DNA of 64,000 bases from Halorubrum yunnanense (GTDB lineage: Archaea; Halobacteriota; Halobacteria; Halobacteriales; Haloferacaceae). The stretch covers positions 109,872-173,871 of the forward strand of contig NZ_JAODIX010000030.1 in NCBI RefSeq assembly GCF_026586675.1, read 5' to 3'. A program made the translations under genes and the position numbers. Positions 2,874 to 10,365 of this stretch are shown here, in pieces (the stretch's first letter is position 1; the number at the start of each line of letters is the position of its first letter). Under the pieces are notes generated by a model. The model saw only the letters and a list, made by a program, of their open reading frames with translations. It searched no databases and was not told the DNA's origin.

Positions 2874-3236
2874 ATGCAACCGCTCGTCGTCGCCATCCTC
2901 GTCGGCGTCCCGCTCGCGTGGCTGGTCGGCTTCGCGGCGTACGCCTACGTCGACGCGCCGAAACACGGGATGGATCGGAGGAAGTGGGCGCTCATCACCT
3001 TCGTCGTCCCGCTGTTCGGGCTCTTCGCGTACCTCTTCGAGCGCGACGAGCAGTCGTACGACCCCTCAGAGGACCCCTACGCCGGCGGGAGCGACGCGCG
3101 TAAGGCCGGCCTCGCCGTCCACGAGCGACGCCGCGGCGAGAAGCCGCTCGGGCCGGCTGGGACCGAGGCCGACGACGAGGCGGACGCGGAGGACGAGTGG
3201 GACGACCCGCCGGGCGTCGACGTCGACGAGTCGTGA
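2874..3236 (+). CDS. Small membrane protein, PLDc_N-like
   Basis: A 120-residue protein with two predicted membrane helices, about residues 3-25 and 39-56, then a charged, very acidic cytoplasmic tail ending near DVDES. The segment APKHGMDRRKWALITF followed by VPLFGLFAYLFER resembles the N-terminal two-helix domain that precedes phospholipase D nucleases (PLDc_N), which occurs alone in many haloarchaea. No catalytic HKD motif is present, so enzymatic activity is not suggested. It is divergent from phr, about 120 bp away, and convergent with the next gene. Function is unknown. Confidence 0.75.
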   Translation: MQPLVVAILVGVPLAWLVGFAAYAYVDAPKHGMDRRKWALITFVVPLFGLFAYLFERDEQSYDPSEDPYAGGSDARKAGLAVHERRRGEKPLGPAGTEADDEADAEDEWDDPPGVDVDES

Positions 3237-3255
3237 GGGAGCTCCCGACGAGGCC

Positions 3256-3660
3256 TCACAGCGCGTCGAGCAGCGCCGCCCGTCGCCGGTCGAGATCGAA
3301 GGCGGCGTCCGGGGCGTCGAGCCGCTCGAGGAAGGCGAAGACGTCCGCGCCCGACCGCTCCGCGTGTTCGACGAGCGCCTCGATCGAGGTGCGGTTGAGC
3401 GCGAACGACTCCAGGTGCCCGCAGACGAGCGCGAGCGCAACGCCCGCCTCGCCGTCGGGAAAGGCGGGGTCGACGACGGAGAAATCGGGGTCGCCGGACT
3501 CGCTCCCGGCCGCGACGTCGACGGCCTCCCCGCTCCCGTCGGCCGCGAACGTCCGCAGACAGCGGGCGCAGATCGCCGTCGTCGGGGCCGGCGCGTGCTC
3601 CCGGAGCGGGGGCGGGACGGCGAAGGCGACGAGAGTGGCGTCACAGCGGGGACAGGCCAT
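3256..3660 (-). CDS. Conserved haloarchaeal zinc-ribbon protein (DUF6276-like)
   Basis: A 134-residue protein with two Cys pairs, CPRC at residues 3-6 and CARC near 31-34, which together can form one zinc ribbon. The rest is an acidic alpha/beta region with LALVCGHLESFALNR and a C-terminal helix. From memory this matches a haloarchaea-specific family labelled DUF6276; the family number is recollection, the zinc ligands are seen. It starts at ATG 3658-3660 and converges on the small membrane protein with a 19-bp gap. It is not obviously part of the atpD transcript upstream. No function can be assigned. Confidence 0.7.
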   Translation of the reverse strand: MACPRCDATLVAFAVPPPLREHAPAPTTAICARCLRTFAADGSGEAVDVAAGSESGDPDFSVVDPAFPDGEAGVALALVCGHLESFALNRTSIEALVEHAERSGADVFAFLERLDAPDAAFDLDRRRAALLDAL

Positions 3661-3747
3661 GAGAAGCGAGATGGATGAGACGGTGAGTTATCGAGTGGTG
3701 CAGTGCGGGGCAGTAGGGGCCGGGGAGAGCTGGGTCGGCGAGGGCCG

Positions 3748-4440
3748 TCAGTCCGCTGGCTCCGGCTCCTCGGCCGCGGCCGCTTCGGCGGCCGCTTCTC
3801 GCTCTTCCTTCTCCTCTTCCTCCTTTTTGTCCTTGATCTTCTTCATCCGGAAGATCTCCTCGCGCTCCTGTTCTTCCAGTTTCTGCTCGATGTACTCCTG
3901 ATTCTCGTACAGGGTCGGGAGGAGCGTGAACTCGAGGGCGTTCACGCGGCGCTTGGTGGTCTCGATCTCCGTGAGCATCTTCTTCATCGCCGTCTCGACC
4001 TCGGCCGCGAGGATGACCTTCTCCAACAGCGCCTCGTAGGCGTCGGCAGCCTCGTCTATCCGGGCGGAAGAGCCGAGCAGCCCGTAGCCGCGCTCGTCGA
4101 GGCTCTTCCGCACCTTCGAGGACTCGATCTGCGGGACGACCACGCCCATGATGTTCTTCGACTGGGTGGTGATCTCGGGGTGCTCTTTCAGCGCCGCGGC
4201 CGCGCCGCGGACGGCGACGTCGCCCTCCATCGCGCGGGCCATGTCGATCTTGCGCTGGGCCGTCTCGTACGTCTCGGACACGTCCGAGCGGACGTCCTGC
4301 GCCTGATCGAGAATGTCCATGAACTCCATGATGAGGCCGTCACGCTTCTGTTCGAGGGTGTCGTGACCGCGCTCGGAGAGCTCGATGCGGTCCTCGATCG
4401 CCATCAGGTTCTTCCGCGTCGGTTTGACGTCCTTGGCCAT
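3748..4440 (-). CDS. atpD: A-type ATP synthase subunit D (central stalk)
   Basis: Forms the rotating central shaft of the A1Ao ATP synthase, coupling membrane proton flow to catalysis in A1. The 230-residue product starts [13 protein letters not shown], typical of the family, and is a long coiled coil. The N-terminal helix region covers about residues 5-75 and the C-terminal helix runs through [23 protein letters not shown]. The C-terminal tail is Ala/Glu-rich and highly charged. The frame is open upstream to 4719 but only the ATG at 4438-4440 fits the family. The gene is separated from atpHIKECFAB by a 4.5-kb block of unrelated genes, so it probably has its own promoter; an AT-rich stretch at about 4467-4478 is the likely BoxA. 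Confidence 0.96.
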
Positions 4441-4761
4441 CTTGTTGGAGAACGGTTCCGCTCCGACGCGGATAATTCTTTTCAGTCGGGACGTCTCATC
4501 GCCGCGGCCACGCACGGGACGAGGGGCCGGCGAAACCGACGCACGGGACAAATATCTCGCCGCATCGAGAGCGAACGTACAACAAAGAAAGGCGAAGCCG
4601 GGAGACGCAACAGGTCGTGTGCCTCTGACGGCGCGGGCGATCGCTTCCGACGGCGGTCGCCGGGATAGCGGCCGTCCGTTCGGGTCCGGTGGGGCCGCGG
4701 TCAGCGGGGATCTCGCCACCCGGTGGGACCCGTAGCGGTCGCGTCGGTCAGGGCTGTCGGG
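4441..4761. other. Intergenic region upstream of atpD
   Basis: About 320 bp without a supportable gene. The frame continuing upstream of atpD has no family-like sequence. An AT-rich segment (4467-4478; minus strand AAGAATTATC) is the best candidate for a separate atpD promoter. I see no repeat or terminator-like T tract. Confidence 0.5.
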
Positions 4762-5490
4762 TTACGCCCGCCGCCAGCCCGCGTAACCGAGCAGCCCGGC
4801 GACGAGGAGCGCCAGCGTCGGCGCCAACGGGGTGGGCGCCGAGTCGTCGGTAGCCCCGGCGGCGTCGCTCGGGGCGAACGCGGCCGAGAACTCCGACAGG
4901 TCCGTTCCGGCGGTCCACTCGGCGGTCGCGGCGTCGTTCCCGTCGGGCGAGGTCGTGGCGTCGGCGGGGACCGTCGCGTCCGCGAGCGCGTACCCGTCGG
5001 GCGCGACGAGGACGAACGGGCGGTCCGGGCGGAACTCGCTGGCGAACGGCTCGCTCACGACCAGCCGGTCGCCGTCGACCGCGGCGAGGCTCGTCCAGGC
5101 CGCCGAAAGCCGGACGACGCCGGTGCCGTCTCCGGATTCGATTTCGGCGCGGACGTCGGAGACGGTCATCTCGCGTCCGGTTTGGGCCGCCGTTCGCTCG
5201 GCGATCCGGGTCATACGGTCACCGAACGGCCCCGTGATGTTCTCCGGGCGCTCGCGCAGGTCCGCGAACGCGGCCCGGTCGTCGGCGTCGTCGAGGTCGT
5301 ACGCCAAGACGAGCGTGACCGTCGCGTCGCCGTCGGATTCGAGCGCGACGACGAACGCCGACCCCTCCTCGGTCGCGGCCTCCGCCCCCGGACCGTCGAC
5401 CGCGGCGGCTCCCGGCGCGAGGAGCGCGCCGACCAGCGCGACCGTTGCGACGGCCGCGACCGCGGTGAGGACGCGACTGCGGGACGCCAT
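4762..5490 (-). CDS. Secreted/anchored DUF7345-like protein
   Basis: Predicted exported protein of 242 residues. It has an N-terminal signal sequence (about residues 1-31, hydrophobic AVAAVATVALVGALLAPGAAA), a globular domain of about 170 residues, and a C-terminal membrane helix PTLALLVAGLLGYAGW followed by RRA. The globular domain is clearly paralogous to the external domain of the product of 7718-8893: both share F.DRMT, REM, a following beta region, AAVDGD, and APDGYA.ADA. Unlike that paralogue it has no cytoplasmic DNA-binding domain. The ATG start overlaps the stop of the preceding gene (TGATG; an in-frame GTG lies one codon upstream), so the two are translationally coupled. The DUF7345 label is from memory. 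Confidence 0.8.
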   Translation of the reverse strand: MASRSRVLTAVAAVATVALVGALLAPGAAAVDGPGAEAATEEGSAFVVALESDGDATVTLVLAYDLDDADDRAAFADLRERPENITGPFGDRMTRIAERTAAQTGREMTVSDVRAEIESGDGTGVVRLSAAWTSLAAVDGDRLVVSEPFASEFRPDRPFVLVAPDGYALADATVPADATTSPDGNDAATAEWTAGTDLSEFSAAFAPSDAAGATDDSAPTPLAPTLALLVAGLLGYAGWRRA

Positions 5491-7538
5491 CACTCGTCGT
5501 CCTCCTCGTCGTCGTCTTCCTCATCGTCCGCGTCGTCACCGTCCGCCTCATCGTCGTCGACCTCCTCGTCCGCGTCGCCGCTGTCGGTCTCGAACTCCAC
5601 TTCGAGTTGGCCCTCGCGGTCGCCGTCCTCGACGTCGATATCGGCCCCGTCGGCGTCGGCCGGTAGCGTCACCTCGACGCGACCGTCAGCGTCGGTCGCG
5701 CCGACGGACTCTCCTTCGACCTCGACGCTCGCGCCCTCCACGGGCTCGGCGTCAGCGTCGGTCACCTCGACGGTCACCGTCGCGCCGGGACCGAGTTCGC
5801 CGGAGACGACGGCGACGGAGAGGTCGGGGGCGTCGCGGTCGTCCTCTTCGTCTTCGCGGTCGTCCTCTTCGTCTTCGCGGTCGTCCTCTTCGTCTTCGCG
5901 GTCGGCCTCGTCCTCGCTGCCGTCGGCCTCGTCGTCCGCGTCGCGGTCGTCGACGTCGACCTCGTCGAGCACGAGGCCCCCGTCCGCGCCGACCTCGAAG
6001 TCGAGTGCGGCCTCGAACGCGCCCTTCACGAGGGTGACCTGCAGCTCGTCGTCGACGCCCGACGCGTCGAACGAGAGCGTTCCGTCCTCGTCGGTCGTCC
6101 CGACGCGCTCGTCGTCGACGTAGACGGCGACGCCGTCGACGCCATCGCTGTCGTAGGTCACTGAGACGGTGACCGTTCCGTTCTCGACGGTGCCGTCCAC
6201 GGAGAGCCGTTCGCGGATCTCCGCGTCCGCCTCGTCGCCGTCGTCGCCCGCGCCGAGCGTGATCTCCAGTTCGCCCTCGCGGTCGGCGTCTTCGGCCTCG
6301 ATATCCACCTCGTCGTCGTCGGGCAGCGTCACCGTGATCCGCCCGTCCGCGTCGGTCGCGCCGACGCCCCGGTCGCCCAGTTCGACGGTCGCGCCCTCGA
6401 CGGGCTCGCCGGCGGCGGTCACGCGGAGGGTCACCGTCGCGCCCGGCTCGGCCGTGCCGTCGACGATCGAGATCGAGAGGGGCGTCTCATCGGCCTCGTC
6501 GCCGTCGTCGTCCGGGTCGCGGGACTCGAGCTCCTCCTCGAACTCGAAGGCTTCGCCGGTCTGTCCGTCGACGCTCACCTCGGCCTCGCCGGTCGTCTCC
6601 GGACCGAAGAAGGTGAACTCGAACTCGTAGTAGCCGTCGTCCTCGTCGCGGTCGGTGGACCGAAGGGTCCACTCGCCGTCGCCGTCGGTCGACAGCTGCT
6701 CCGTGGCGGCCGTGAGCGCTTCGCTCTGGCTGACCTCGAAGCTGCCGTCGCCGGGCTGTTCGCGTTCGATCTCGCGCGAGCGATCGCCGTCGTCGCCCTC
6801 GACCTCGATGGAGACGCCGCCGTCGACGGCGAGGGAGAACTCCCCGGCGCTCTCGCCGGTGTACTGCGCGAGCAGCGCGCTCGCCCCGGTCCCCGTCACG
6901 CGGGCGAGCCGCTGGCGGGCGTCCGCGTTGGCGCTCCGGTCGTAGCCCGCCGCGCGGAGTTCGAGCCCGGAGACGTCGTCCGCGTGGTCGTCGAGCCGGT
7001 CGAACTCACGGTCGACCGTGCGCGCCTGTCCGGCGAGGACCGCGAGCCGCTGTGCGAACTCCCCGCGGTCGATCTCGCCGTCCTCGTAGGCGACCCGCGC
7101 CTCGCGCTGGTCGGCGACGATCCCGTCGGCGCGGTCGCGGAGCGCGGCCGCCCGGTCAGCGAGGATCGCCGCGCGCTCCGACTCGTTCGCGTCCTCCAGC
7201 GCCGCGTCGAGCGACGAGGCCTCGACGTCGCTCGACACCTCGTCGTCGGTGACGGCGATGACCGTCGCGAGCTGCTGTCCGACCGTCGCGCGCGACGTGT
7301 CCGAGTCCGAGGCGTTCGCGTCACCGTCGGTCGTGCTCGTCGCGTTCCCGTCCGTGGCGTTCCCGTCGTCCGTCTGCGCCGTGACGGTCGATTCGTCGAT
7401 ACCCTCGATCGCCGCGTCGGCCGAGTCGATGTCCGTCGCGTCCCCGGCGCCGGCGGCGCTCGCGAGCGCCCCGCCCGGCACGGAGCCCAAGACGAGCCCC
7501 AGCGCCACGAGAACGGTCAGGAGTCGTGTGGCTTGCAT
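5490..7538 (-). CDS. Large secreted acidic protein with Ig-like repeats (DUF7096-like)
   Basis: A 682-residue exported protein. A signal peptide spans about residues 1-24 (MQATRLLTVLVALGLVLGSV), followed by an Asp/Thr/Asn-rich linker, a charged helical region (about 75-220), a PepSY-like alpha/beta region, and then three beta-sandwich modules. Two modules share the pattern PGATVT..V..A..PVEGA.VE followed by GATDADGR and VTLP, like carboxypeptidase-regulatory/CNA-B repeats. The tail is almost pure Asp/Glu and no C-terminal membrane anchor is seen. A 7-residue repeat (REDEEDD, three copies) lies between modules. ATG at 7536-7538 is chosen because a BoxA lies about 30 bp upstream and the signal peptide starts there. 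It forms an operon with the downstream DUF7345-like gene. Surface location is inferred; function is unknown. Confidence 0.82.
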   Translation of the reverse strand: MQATRLLTVLVALGLVLGSVPGGALASAAGAGDATDIDSADAAIEGIDESTVTAQTDDGNATDGNATSTTDGDANASDSDTSRATVGQQLATVIAVTDDEVSSDVEASSLDAALEDANESERAAILADRAAALRDRADGIVADQREARVAYEDGEIDRGEFAQRLAVLAGQARTVDREFDRLDDHADDVSGLELRAAGYDRSANADARQRLARVTGTGASALLAQYTGESAGEFSLAVDGGVSIEVEGDDGDRSREIEREQPGDGSFEVSQSEALTAATEQLSTDGDGEWTLRSTDRDEDDGYYEFEFTFFGPETTGEAEVSVDGQTGEAFEFEEELESRDPDDDGDEADETPLSISIVDGTAEPGATVTLRVTAAGEPVEGATVELGDRGVGATDADGRITVTLPDDDEVDIEAEDADREGELEITLGAGDDGDEADAEIRERLSVDGTVENGTVTVSVTYDSDGVDGVAVYVDDERVGTTDEDGTLSFDASGVDDELQVTLVKGAFEAALDFEVGADGGLVLDEVDVDDRDADDEADGSEDEADREDEEDDREDEEDDREDEEDDRDAPDLSVAVVSGELGPGATVTVEVTDADAEPVEGASVEVEGESVGATDADGRVEVTLPADADGADIDVEDGDREGQLEVEFETDSGDADEEVDDDEADGDDADDEEDDDEEDDE
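5838..5900 (-). repeat. Three tandem 21-bp repeats in coding sequence
   Basis: Three identical head-to-tail units of 21 bp encode a 7-residue acidic repeat (R-E-D-E-E-D-D) in the linker between the second and third beta modules of the large secreted protein. Unit length is a multiple of three, so copy-number change would keep the frame. Confidence 0.9.
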
Positions 7539-7564
7539 TACGGACGGATTAACGGGCTCCGACC

Positions 7565-7573
7565 ACATATACC
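7565..7573 (-). promoter_or_regulatory. BoxA of the large secreted protein operon
   Basis: Minus-strand GTATATG lies about 30 bp upstream of the ATG at 7538, the spacing used by leaderless haloarchaeal promoters. The phased repeat array starts directly on its upstream side. Confidence 0.6.
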
Positions 7574-7582
7574 GGGACGACC

Positions 7583-7649
7583 GTGGCGGTCCGTTGCGGT
7601 CAGTTGCACCGCGTTTCACCGGACTGACGACCGTTTCACCGAGTTTCGG
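7583..7649. promoter_or_regulatory. 10-bp-phased operator-like array between divergent promoters
   Basis: Heptamers of the form GTTKCRS recur at exactly 10-bp intervals: 7583 GTGGCGG, 7593 GTTGCGG, 7603 GTTGCAC, 7613 GTTTCAC, 7633 GTTTCAC and 7643 GTTTCGG, with a weak copy at 7653 (ATTGCGC). CGTTTCACCG occurs twice, exactly 20 bp apart. All copies therefore lie on one face of the helix. The array fills the space between the BoxA of the minus-strand operon and that of the plus-strand regulator. A binding site for the winged-helix protein encoded at 7718-8893 is the simplest reading; this is inference. Confidence 0.65.
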
Positions 7650-7685
7650 CGGATTGCGCGAGACGGGTCGCGTGGCTATCTGTGG

Positions 7686-7692
7686 ATTTAAG
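7686..7692 (+). promoter_or_regulatory. BoxA of the membrane-anchored regulator
   Basis: ATTTAAG lies 26-32 bp upstream of the ATG at 7718, predicting a leaderless transcript. Confidence 0.6.
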
Positions 7693-7717
7693 CCGGACGC
7701 CGAAGTACCCCAGATCG

Positions 7718-8893
7718 ATGAGACGACGCGATCGGACCGTCGGGTCGATCGCCGCCCTCCTCCTCGCCGCCTGCTGCGTCGTCGCCCTCGCGTTCGCCGT
7801 CCCCGCGAGCGCGCAGACGGCGGCGTTCCCGCAGACCGACGACCAACCGGAGCCGGACAACACGGTCACGAGGATCGGCCTGTCGGCCGACGGCTCCGCG
7901 ACGTGGGAGATAACCCTCCGAACGCGGCTCGAAAACGACAGCGAAGTCGCCGAGTACGAGCGGTTTCAAGAGCGGTTCCGGTCGAACACGAGCCGCTACC
8001 TCGACCCCTTCGCCGACCGGATGACAGGGGTGGTCGCGGCCGCGAACGACTCGGCCGACCGCGAGATGCGCGCGACGGAGTTCGAGGCCGAGACGTCGAT
8101 ACAGGAGGTTCCGCGCCGGTGGGGGGTCGTCAGCTTCCGGTTCACCTGGACCGGCTTCGCCGCGGTCGACGGCGACGCGGTCGTCGTCGGGGACGTGTTC
8201 GAGGGCGGCTTCTTCATCGGCGACGACGACGCGCTGGCGATCGCGGCGCCCGACGGCTACGCGGTCGCGGACGCCTCGCCGACCCCCGACGAACTCGACG
8301 GCGGGGTCGCCGAGTGGCGGGGGCGCGAGGACTTCGCCGGGGGTCGTCCGAGCGTTCGAGCCGTGCCCGGATCGACTGCCGACGGCGGAAACGGCGGCAC
8401 GGGCGGAGGTGACGGAGGAGGAGCGGTGACCGGCGACGCGCTGATTCTCGTCGCGCTCGGCGGCATCCTACTCGTTGGAGGCGCCGCGCTCGTCGCCTTC
8501 GCCGTCCGGACCGGCCGGATCGGGGATGGGGGCGACAACGACACCCCCACGGCGAGCGCGTCGATAAGCGGCGGTGTCGCGTCGGAGCAAGGCGGTGGGA
8601 ACGGCTCCGGCGCTCCATCGACGGAGCCGCGCGCGGAGCGGGCGGCCGCGACGGAGGAGTCGGCCGGATCGGGTGAGACCGATCCGGCGCTGCTCACTGA
8701 CGAAGACCGCGTTACGCGCGTGCTCCGCGAGGAGGGCGGACGAATGAAGCAGTCCGATGTGGTCGACGCGCTCGGCTGGTCGAAATCGAAGACTTCACGC
8801 GTGCTCTCGCGGATGGCCGACGCCGGCGAGGTGGAGAAGCTGCGGATCGGCCGAGAGAACGTGATCGACGTCGTTGACGACGACGAGGCGTGA
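7718..8893 (+). CDS. Membrane-anchored transcription regulator: DUF7345-like sensor, TM helix, winged helix
   Basis: A 391-residue protein in four parts. First is a signal sequence (about residues 8-37, ending ALAFAVPASAQT). Second is an extracytoplasmic domain (about 45-225) paralogous to the product of 4762-5490. Third is a Gly-rich linker with a membrane helix (about 245-267, ALILVALGGILLVGGAAL). Fourth is a cytoplasmic tail ending in a winged helix (about 325-388) with the recognition segment ALGWSKSKTSRVLSRM. This is the layout of a one-component membrane-bound transcription factor. The start is fixed by a BoxA 28 bp upstream. It is divergent from the operon encoding the secreted paralogue, across a phased repeat array, so auto- and cross-regulation is likely. 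Ligand and targets are unknown. Confidence 0.85.
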   Translation: MRRRDRTVGSIAALLLAACCVVALAFAVPASAQTAAFPQTDDQPEPDNTVTRIGLSADGSATWEITLRTRLENDSEVAEYERFQERFRSNTSRYLDPFADRMTGVVAAANDSADREMRATEFEAETSIQEVPRRWGVVSFRFTWTGFAAVDGDAVVVGDVFEGGFFIGDDDALAIAAPDGYAVADASPTPDELDGGVAEWRGREDFAGGRPSVRAVPGSTADGGNGGTGGGDGGGAVTGDALILVALGGILLVGGAALVAFAVRTGRIGDGGDNDTPTASASISGGVASEQGGGNGSGAPSTEPRAERAAATEESAGSGETDPALLTDEDRVTRVLREEGGRMKQSDVVDALGWSKSKTSRVLSRMADAGEVEKLRIGRENVIDVVDDDEA

Positions 8894-8946
8894 GAGGCCG
8901 ACGCAGCCGCTGACCGAGGGCGGGCAAGCGGAAAGAAGGCCGGGGA

Positions 8947-10365
8947 TTAGTCGGCGGCTTCGATGACCTTGCGCTCGGAGTCGTCCTCGCGGTAGTACTC
9001 CTCGATGAACTCCTCGTCGATCCGGTTGAGGGCGTCTTTCGGGAGCATCGAGAGCAGGTCCCAGCCGATCGAGAGCGTCTCCTCGATGTCGCGGTTCTGA
9101 TCGAAGCCCTGGTCGACGAACTCAGACTCGAAGGCGTCCGCGAAGTCGAGGTACTTGTTGTCGAGCTCCGAGAGCGCCTCGCGGCCGACGATGTTCACGA
9201 GGTCGCGGAGGTCCTCGCCCTCGGCGTACGCCGCGAACATCTGGTCTTTCACGTCGGCGTGGTCCTCGCGGGTGAGCCCCTCGCCGATCCCGTCGTCCAT
9301 CAGCCGAGACAGGCTGGGGAGCACGTTGATCGGGGGCTGCAGGCCCTGACTGTTGAGGTCGGGGTCGACGTATATCTGCCCCTCCGTGATGTATCCGGTC
9401 AGGTCGGGGATCGGGTGGGTGTCGTCGTCGCCCGGCATCGTGAGGATCGGGATCTGGGTGACGGACCCCTCACGGCCCTGGATCCGCCCGGCGCGCTCGT
9501 ACAGCTGCGCCAGGTCGGTGTACATGTACCCGGGGTAGCCACGCCGGCCGGGGACCTCCTCGCGGGCCGCCCCGATCTCGCGGAGCGCCTCGCAGTAGTT
9601 GGTCATGTCCGTCAGGATGACCAGGACGTGGTAGTCCTTCTCGAAGGCGAGGTACTCGGCCGTCGTCAGGACCATTCGCGGAGTGACCGTCCGCTCGACG
9701 GCGGGGTCGTCCGCGAGGTTCATGAAGACGACGGAACGCTCCAAGGCGCCGGTGCGCTCGAAGTCGTCCATGAACTCGTTGGCCTCCTCCTGGGTGATTC
9801 CCATCGCGCCGAAGATGACGGCAAACTCGGAGCTCTCCTCGCCGTCTTCCTCCTCTTCGGGCACACTGGCCTGCCGGGCGATCTGCATCGCCAGCTGGCT
9901 GTGCGGCTGGCCGGAGCTGGAGAAGATCGGGAGCTTCTGCCCGCGGACGAGGGTGTTCATCCCGTCGATCGCGGAGACGCCCGTCTCGATGAACTCCTCG
10001 GGGTACTCGCGGGAGTACGGGTTGATCGCCGCGCCGACGATGTCCTGGCGCTCCTCGGGGACGATCTCCGGCCCGTCGTCGATCGGGCGGCCGGAGCCGT
10101 CGAGGACCCGTCCGAGGAGGTCCTCGGTGACGGGCATCTTCATCGTCTCGCCCAGGAAGCGGACGGACGCGTTCTGGTCGATACCGGAGGTGCCCTCGAA
10201 CACCTGGATGGCGACGACGCCCTCCGAGGATTCGAGCACCTGTCCGCGTAGCGTCTCTCCCTGTGCCGTCTCGATCTCGACGATCTCGTCGTAACCGATC
10301 GCCTCGTCGACCTCGGCGTACACGAGGGGGCCGCTGATCTCGGTGATGGTTTGGTACTCTTTCAT
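8947..10365 (-). CDS. atpB: A-type ATP synthase subunit B
   Basis: Non-catalytic nucleotide-binding partner of subunit A in the A3B3 hexamer. The 472-residue product starts [16 protein letters not shown], typical of the family. It has the N-terminal beta barrel, an altered P-loop (IFSSSGQPH in place of GxxxxGKT, as expected for B), [25 protein letters not shown] and [22 protein letters not shown]. Length matches archaeal B subunits. It is the last gene of the contiguous atp operon; the atpA stop lies 1 bp before its start codon. The plus-strand open frames opposite are shadows. Confidence 0.98.

Follow-up and report, generated by a model that had tools for sequence, protein, structure and literature searches.

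The window, a stretch of 64,000 nucleotides (64 kb) from Halorubrum yunnanense to which all coordinates below refer, contains a three-gene cassette between atpB (8947–10365) and atpD (3748–4470). The insertion breaks the gene order of the A-type ATP synthase (3748–10365). The regulator gene of the cassette (7718–8893, plus strand) encodes a DUF7345–TM–DUF7343 protein (Pfam PF24036 and PF24034). Pfam and an AlphaFold model place a signal/TM helix at residues 6–26, a DUF7345 ectodomain at 52–181, a TM helix at 240–264, a low-confidence linker, and a DUF7343 winged helix at 325–384, the latter with a pLDDT of about 93–96 in the monomer model. The first-pass annotation of this DNA had described the product as a membrane-anchored winged-helix protein, which agrees with the TM helix (240–264) and winged helix (325–384) predicted in one chain. 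A fold search with the whole model placed the FMO protein on top over the ectodomain, at TM-scores near 0.16 that carry no meaning, and the regulator profile had no match in a sequence search of the PDB.

The other two genes lie on the minus strand. The gene at 5490–7538 encodes a surface or secreted protein with DUF7096 (PF23379) and carboxypeptidase-regulatory-like domains, and is the conserved partner of the regulator in orthologous loci. The gene at 4762–5493 encodes a DUF7345 protein (PF24036) with a C-terminal hydrophobic stretch; the beginning of this gene overlaps the surface-gene stop, and the two probably form an operon. This second product belongs to the same ectodomain family as the regulator and is kept in most orthologous loci, and Pfam recognized no DNA-binding domain in it. 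A possible role for it is to pair with the regulator's ectodomain or to titrate it.

Both flanking promoters could be read directly from the sequence. The surface operon has its TATA box at 7566–7572 on the minus strand (CATATAC as read on the plus strand), at the same distances from the array cores as in other genera. The BRE/BoxA of the regulator gene, GTGGATTTAA, spans 7682–7691 on the plus strand with its BoxA, ATTTAA, at 7686–7691, and ATCTGTGGGTTTAA is kept at this position in Halorubrum orthologues. The two BoxA elements thus lie where the first-pass annotation had put them.

A helically phased array of direct repeats

Read in tens, positions 7580–7659 between these promoters are accgtggcgg, tccgttgcgg, tcagttgcac, cgcgtttcac, cggactgacg, accgtttcac, cgagtttcgg, and cggattgcgc. 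Related heptamers fall on an exact 10-bp grid at 7593 (GTTGCGG), 7603 (GTTGCAC), 7613 (GTTTCAC), 7633 (GTTTCAC), 7643 (GTTTCGG), and 7653 (ATTGCGC). The register at 7623 is skipped: it reads ACTGACG and leaves core position 7624 empty. Direct reading, a chain scan, and the Halorubrum orthologues all identify a phased array of six (R)TTKCR units on the plus strand (7593–7659), with six TTKCR cores starting at 7594, 7604, 7614, 7634, 7644, and 7654. An earlier list of GTTKCRS heptamers on this grid holds for the sites from 7593 to 7643 and for the skipped register, but its entry at 7583 reads GTGGCGG and does not fit GTTKCRS. In the orthologue alignment, this heptamer (7583–7589, plus strand) is a degenerate outer register that precedes the first core by one turn, towards the surface gene, and CCGTGG is kept there in all eight aligned Halorubrum-type loci. 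The site at 7653, previously regarded as a weak seventh, is a full register, the core TT and C of which are kept in the same eight of eight loci.

The six-core array is the longest TTKCR chain on either strand of the window, with a runner-up of two, and 300 composition-preserving shuffles of the window gave chains of at most three. Scanning the window at periods of 7–9 and 11–15 bp revealed no chain of four or more cores (maximum two). The 3.17 Mb genome contains the exact triple heptamer pattern a single time, and matches to this pattern at up to one mismatch are confined to the array; the remaining genomic sites carry two mismatches each and are about as frequent as those of a reversed-pattern control.

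Conservation across orthologous loci

Orthologues were collected from 20 named genome loci and from genomes of the same genus, and 21 intergenic regions were measured. Phased cores are present at orthologous loci of Halorubrum, Natronorubrum, Halobellus, Haloparvum, Halohasta, Halomarina, and others, and the array is kept in many genera while the surrounding sequence has mostly changed. Over the 21 loci, TTBCR cores are separated by 10 bp (51 pairs), 20 (25), 21 (11), 30 (7), 31 (20), 40 (6), 41 (21), 50 (2), and 51 bp (11), with a few pairs one bp off these lags and almost none elsewhere, and the reverse strand gave one pair in total and chains of 0–1. Absence of the 10-bp spacing from orthologous regions had been named beforehand as grounds for discarding the array; phased cores are instead found across genera, at lags that nearly all correspond to helical steps. 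Compared with 2000 dinucleotide shuffles per locus, 13 of the 21 loci reached the floor of p = 0.0005, three more gave p ≤ 0.0015, and five, which comprise one Halorubrum locus (G022) and four short two-core arrays, lay at 0.036–0.052; since the loci are related, these tests are not independent of each other.

Base conservation was counted by register, rather than by motif match, in 48 units from eight Halorubrum-type loci. The first T is present in 48/48 units, the second T in 47/48, and the C in 47/48, and the flanking G or T and the R are conserved as well; the skipped register of the eight loci contains no such core. Registers 1–6 span 51 bp for five turns in most Halorubrum loci. The gap between the two triplets measures 20–21 bp in Halorubrum versus 11 bp in Halobellus rarus and Haloparvum, which is one turn less, and Hrr. 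salipaludis and Hrr. amylolyticum retain just the first three sites. Together, these comparisons establish that the phased array is real and under functional constraint.

The array is phase-locked to the surface-gene TATA box

The cores of the window lie 28, 38, 48, 68, 78, and 88 bp upstream of the surface TATA box. This series recurs, with small variations, across genera: distances are 28, 38, and 48, then 69, 79, and 89 bp in Halorubrum; 28, 38, and 48, then 59, 69, and 79 bp in Halobellus rarus and Haloparvum; 38 and 48 bp in Halobellus captivus, Hrr. saccharovorum, and Halomarina; 48, 58, and 68 bp in QS_1; 28, 39, 48, 58, and 68 bp in SHR40; and 28 and 38 or 28 and 37 bp in four further loci (L043, L050, L012, and L088). 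Exceptions of one or two bp are found in Halohasta (37 and 47) and QH_7 (30 and 40). For each surface gene, the TATA box was chosen visually from the interval upstream of the start where one is expected, and Halobaculum (L048) was not counted because its TATA choice is uncertain.

Between the last core and the start of the regulator lie anywhere from 52 to about 150 bp, and kilobases in one genome. On the Haloquadratum contig L043, the surface gene starts at 2766 and the regulator lies at 5864, about 3 kb away, and the two cores keep their distances of 28 and 38 bp to the TATA box of the surface gene. The constant distance to the TATA box, the varying distance to the regulator, and the arrangement in L043 therefore assign the array to the surface promoter. 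The first-pass annotation had placed it between divergent promoters, which do flank it on both sides, but the arrangement is not symmetric: the array is locked to the surface TATA box, and its distance to the regulator is free to vary. It is foremost an upstream element of the surface operon, and autoregulation of the regulator gene is optional. Like an archaeal upstream activating sequence, it is a conserved element at a fixed distance upstream of BRE/TATA (28, 38, and 48 bp across genera), and it starts beyond the expected BRE.

The region that separates the genes in L043 contains a transposon-like stretch (2880–5860) and a second related surface-type gene (3522–4502).

The array travels with the cassette

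Named Halorubrum loci of this type, and Halobellus rarus, likewise have the cassette between atpB and atpD, and a search for atp genes around the cassette in Natronorubrum, Halohasta, and Halomarina found no match. The array accompanies the cassette in these unlike genomic contexts. The gene tree mixes genera, grouping Halobellus captivus with Hrr. saccharovorum and Natronorubrum with Halobellus rarus. Unlike contexts and a genus-mixing tree suggest that the three genes were transferred between haloarchaea as a unit, array included.

The candidate DNA-binding protein

The only DNA-binding domain that Pfam recognizes in the cassette is the DUF7343 winged helix of 7718–8893, and the regulator is the likely binder of the array, with one subunit per turn. 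Besides DUF7343, Pfam reports weak HTH_IclR and MarR_2 matches for this winged helix, and in a fold search with the DUF7343 domain the nearest folds were mostly of the MarR/ArsR type. MarR/ArsR-type proteins usually bind palindromes as symmetric dimers, and this fold thus counts against a head-to-tail reading of direct repeats.

Most array types go with the recognition-helix sequence WSKSKTSR, and one group has WSASKTSR or WSASKASR in its place. TTTGC-form units make up 16 of 22 units next to a WSAS helix versus 4 of 75 next to a WSKS helix. The covariation suggests that a recognition-helix residue sets the repeat preference; as the K/A change is a single event on the tree, it is no stronger than suggestive. 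Residue 356, the first of the recognition helix, is K or A in loci L032–L051 and tracks GTTTCA versus GTTTGCA repeats, which makes it a candidate specificity determinant.

A paralogous divergent DUF7096/DUF7345–DUF7343 cassette (G000:C82:14257-16358, L122–L151) occurs in most of the Halorubrum genomes searched. Inspection of these cassettes for a phased array revealed no grid and a different conserved promoter element, GATGGAAAGCGTTTTGCC, instead. Since the domain pair is the same, not every DUF7343 protein needs a grid. Conversely, other 10-bp-phased arrays of the GTTTCGG type are found in haloarchaea (L069, L073, L074, L078, L079, and L091, near position 1501 as oriented), where they precede genes for winged-helix regulators of PadR-like and DUF7344-like type; the L078/L079 array is common to two species. 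Phased RTTKCR arrays before such unrelated genes imply that the motif is not exclusive to the cassette. DUF7344 genes examined for similar upstream arrays showed no general pattern.

A putative upstream activating operator

We favor, at a probability of roughly 55%, the reading that the array is the upstream activating operator of the surface operon and is bound by membrane-held regulators of the same cassette. The regulators would be anchored in the membrane so that DUF7345 lies outside the cell and the winged helix of DUF7343 in its interior. Each TTKCR core would take up one winged helix, so that the subunits form a head-to-tail row along a single face of the DNA, with one subunit in each helical turn, presumably binding cooperatively. 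The bound row would start at the two sites nearest the TATA box (28 and 38 bp away), abut the TFB/TBP site, and recruit or stabilize the basal factors at the surface promoter. Where the far end of the array lies at the regulator's own promoter, as in Halorubrum, autoregulation is possible. The regulator and the second product of the operon share the DUF7345 ectodomain, which hints at contact or feedback on the outside of the cell, and DUF7345 might serve to sense the surface. Archaeal activators bind upstream of BRE/TATA (PMC6737238, PMC4706686). There is precedent for such a row in two winged-helix proteins that bind head to tail: BldC, which on four repeats leaves one turn between protected tracts (PMC5859096), and RdfS, with one molecule per 10 bp (PMC11963761). 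A bolder, more tentative version is that the membrane-anchored regulator, by assembling head to tail on the TATA-locked operator, docks the promoter under the membrane by the surface proteins that it controls, and that the three-gene sensor cassette moves between haloarchaea as an independent unit that brings its operator along.

The same regulator might instead bind the array to repress, its filament blocking TFB/TBP or RNA polymerase until signals from outside release it. Promoter-proximal sites near BRE/TATA could hinder basal factors, and a position between divergent genes suits autorepression. Yet the first full core lies 28 bp upstream of the TATA box, beyond the BRE, where activators are positioned in archaea, and TrmBL1 activates from upstream sites and represses from downstream ones (PMC4706686); we consider repression rather unlikely. 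Still less probable is that another widely conserved haloarchaeal transcription factor, encoded elsewhere, occupies the array and that the cassette winged helix acts at other sites. The RTTKCR triples on a 10-bp grid before other regulator genes in several genera and the grid-less paralogous DUF7343 cassette would fit such a factor. The array, however, is the only such site of the genome at up to one mismatch, it stays with a mobile three-gene cassette in unlike contexts, and the change in the recognition helix parallels that in the repeat.

Explanations that dispense with a sequence-specific operator fare worse. Phasing of TT at 10 bp could reflect histone positioning or DNA curvature, and loci bound by HpyA in Halobacterium do show a 10.4-bp dinucleotide periodicity (PMC10128011). 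A positioning signal would consist of AA/TT/TA periodicity on either strand with no base-specific motif, whereas the TTKCR repeats are confined to one strand, preserve specific bases beyond TT, and are locked to one promoter family. These properties, together with the finding that genome-wide periodicity was not detected in halophile genomes (PMC10128011), make this reading very improbable. Chance or plain tandem duplication of a short repeat deserves next to no credence. Some triple matches in other genomes are indeed plain tandem repeats, and simple repeats dominate among the matches listed in a spacing control, which we use only qualitatively. At this locus, by contrast, spacer bases vary from unit to unit while the cores persist, shuffles fail to reproduce the array, and its retention over many genera refutes both origins.

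Comparison with known systems

The upstream activating sequence for GvpE in haloarchaeal gas vesicle promoters is a two-part element, unlike the six-unit array described here. Read on the reverse strand, an array unit is TGAAAC, which resembles a half-site of the GvpE element. GvpE itself is an activator of the leucine-zipper type (PMC6737238), whereas the candidate here is a winged helix.

The operators of BldC from Streptomyces and RdfS from Mesorhizobium are closer in layout: they too consist of direct repeats with one site per helical turn or 9–10 bp and a variable repeat number (PMC5859096, PMC11963761). The array shares the tandem repeats at about one turn, with its 10-bp grid and a gap that changes by one turn, and probably the single winged-helix domain per site. 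However, BldC and RdfS are small, soluble bacterial proteins, and the regulator considered here is archaeal and membrane-anchored with a TATA-locked array; its DUF7343 domain resembles MarR/ArsR-type folds rather than the BldC/MerR or Xis winged helices.

Among archaeal proteins, ArnR and ArnR1 of Sulfolobus acidocaldarius are likewise membrane-bound one-component HTH regulators, which control surface structures, oligomerize, and bind upstream boxes (PMC6396743). ArnR, however, carries its HTH at the N-terminus, and its proposed boxes are inverted repeats (TCGAC-N5-GTCGA) with no 10-bp direct array, unlike the direct repeats found here. EarA of Methanococcus maripaludis is also an archaeal winged-helix protein and activates a surface-structure operon through four TACATA sites in one promoter; it is soluble as far as known, and a 10-bp phase lock is not reported in the portion of PMC6396743 consulted. 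More generally, the TTRs are a class of one-component regulators that combine a TM segment with a DNA-binding domain (PMC10269533), as our regulator does by prediction (TM 240–264 and winged helix 325–384 in one chain); the portion of that source consulted describes no helical-array operator for them.

A literature search for DUF7343, DUF7344, DUF7345, and DUF7096 found no paper naming any of them, and the literature searched contained no TATA-locked helical array for a membrane-anchored regulator from archaea. Little is understood of how a membrane-fixed transcription factor locates and retains its promoter, and operators have been defined for few archaeal activators. Conservation alone yields a precise candidate operator for the DUF7345/DUF7343 family, with site, phase, and TATA distance, which makes direct tests feasible. 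Head-to-tail operators of direct repeats and membrane-bound regulators are each known separately; the TATA-locked array described here appears to combine both, and this combination would be new.
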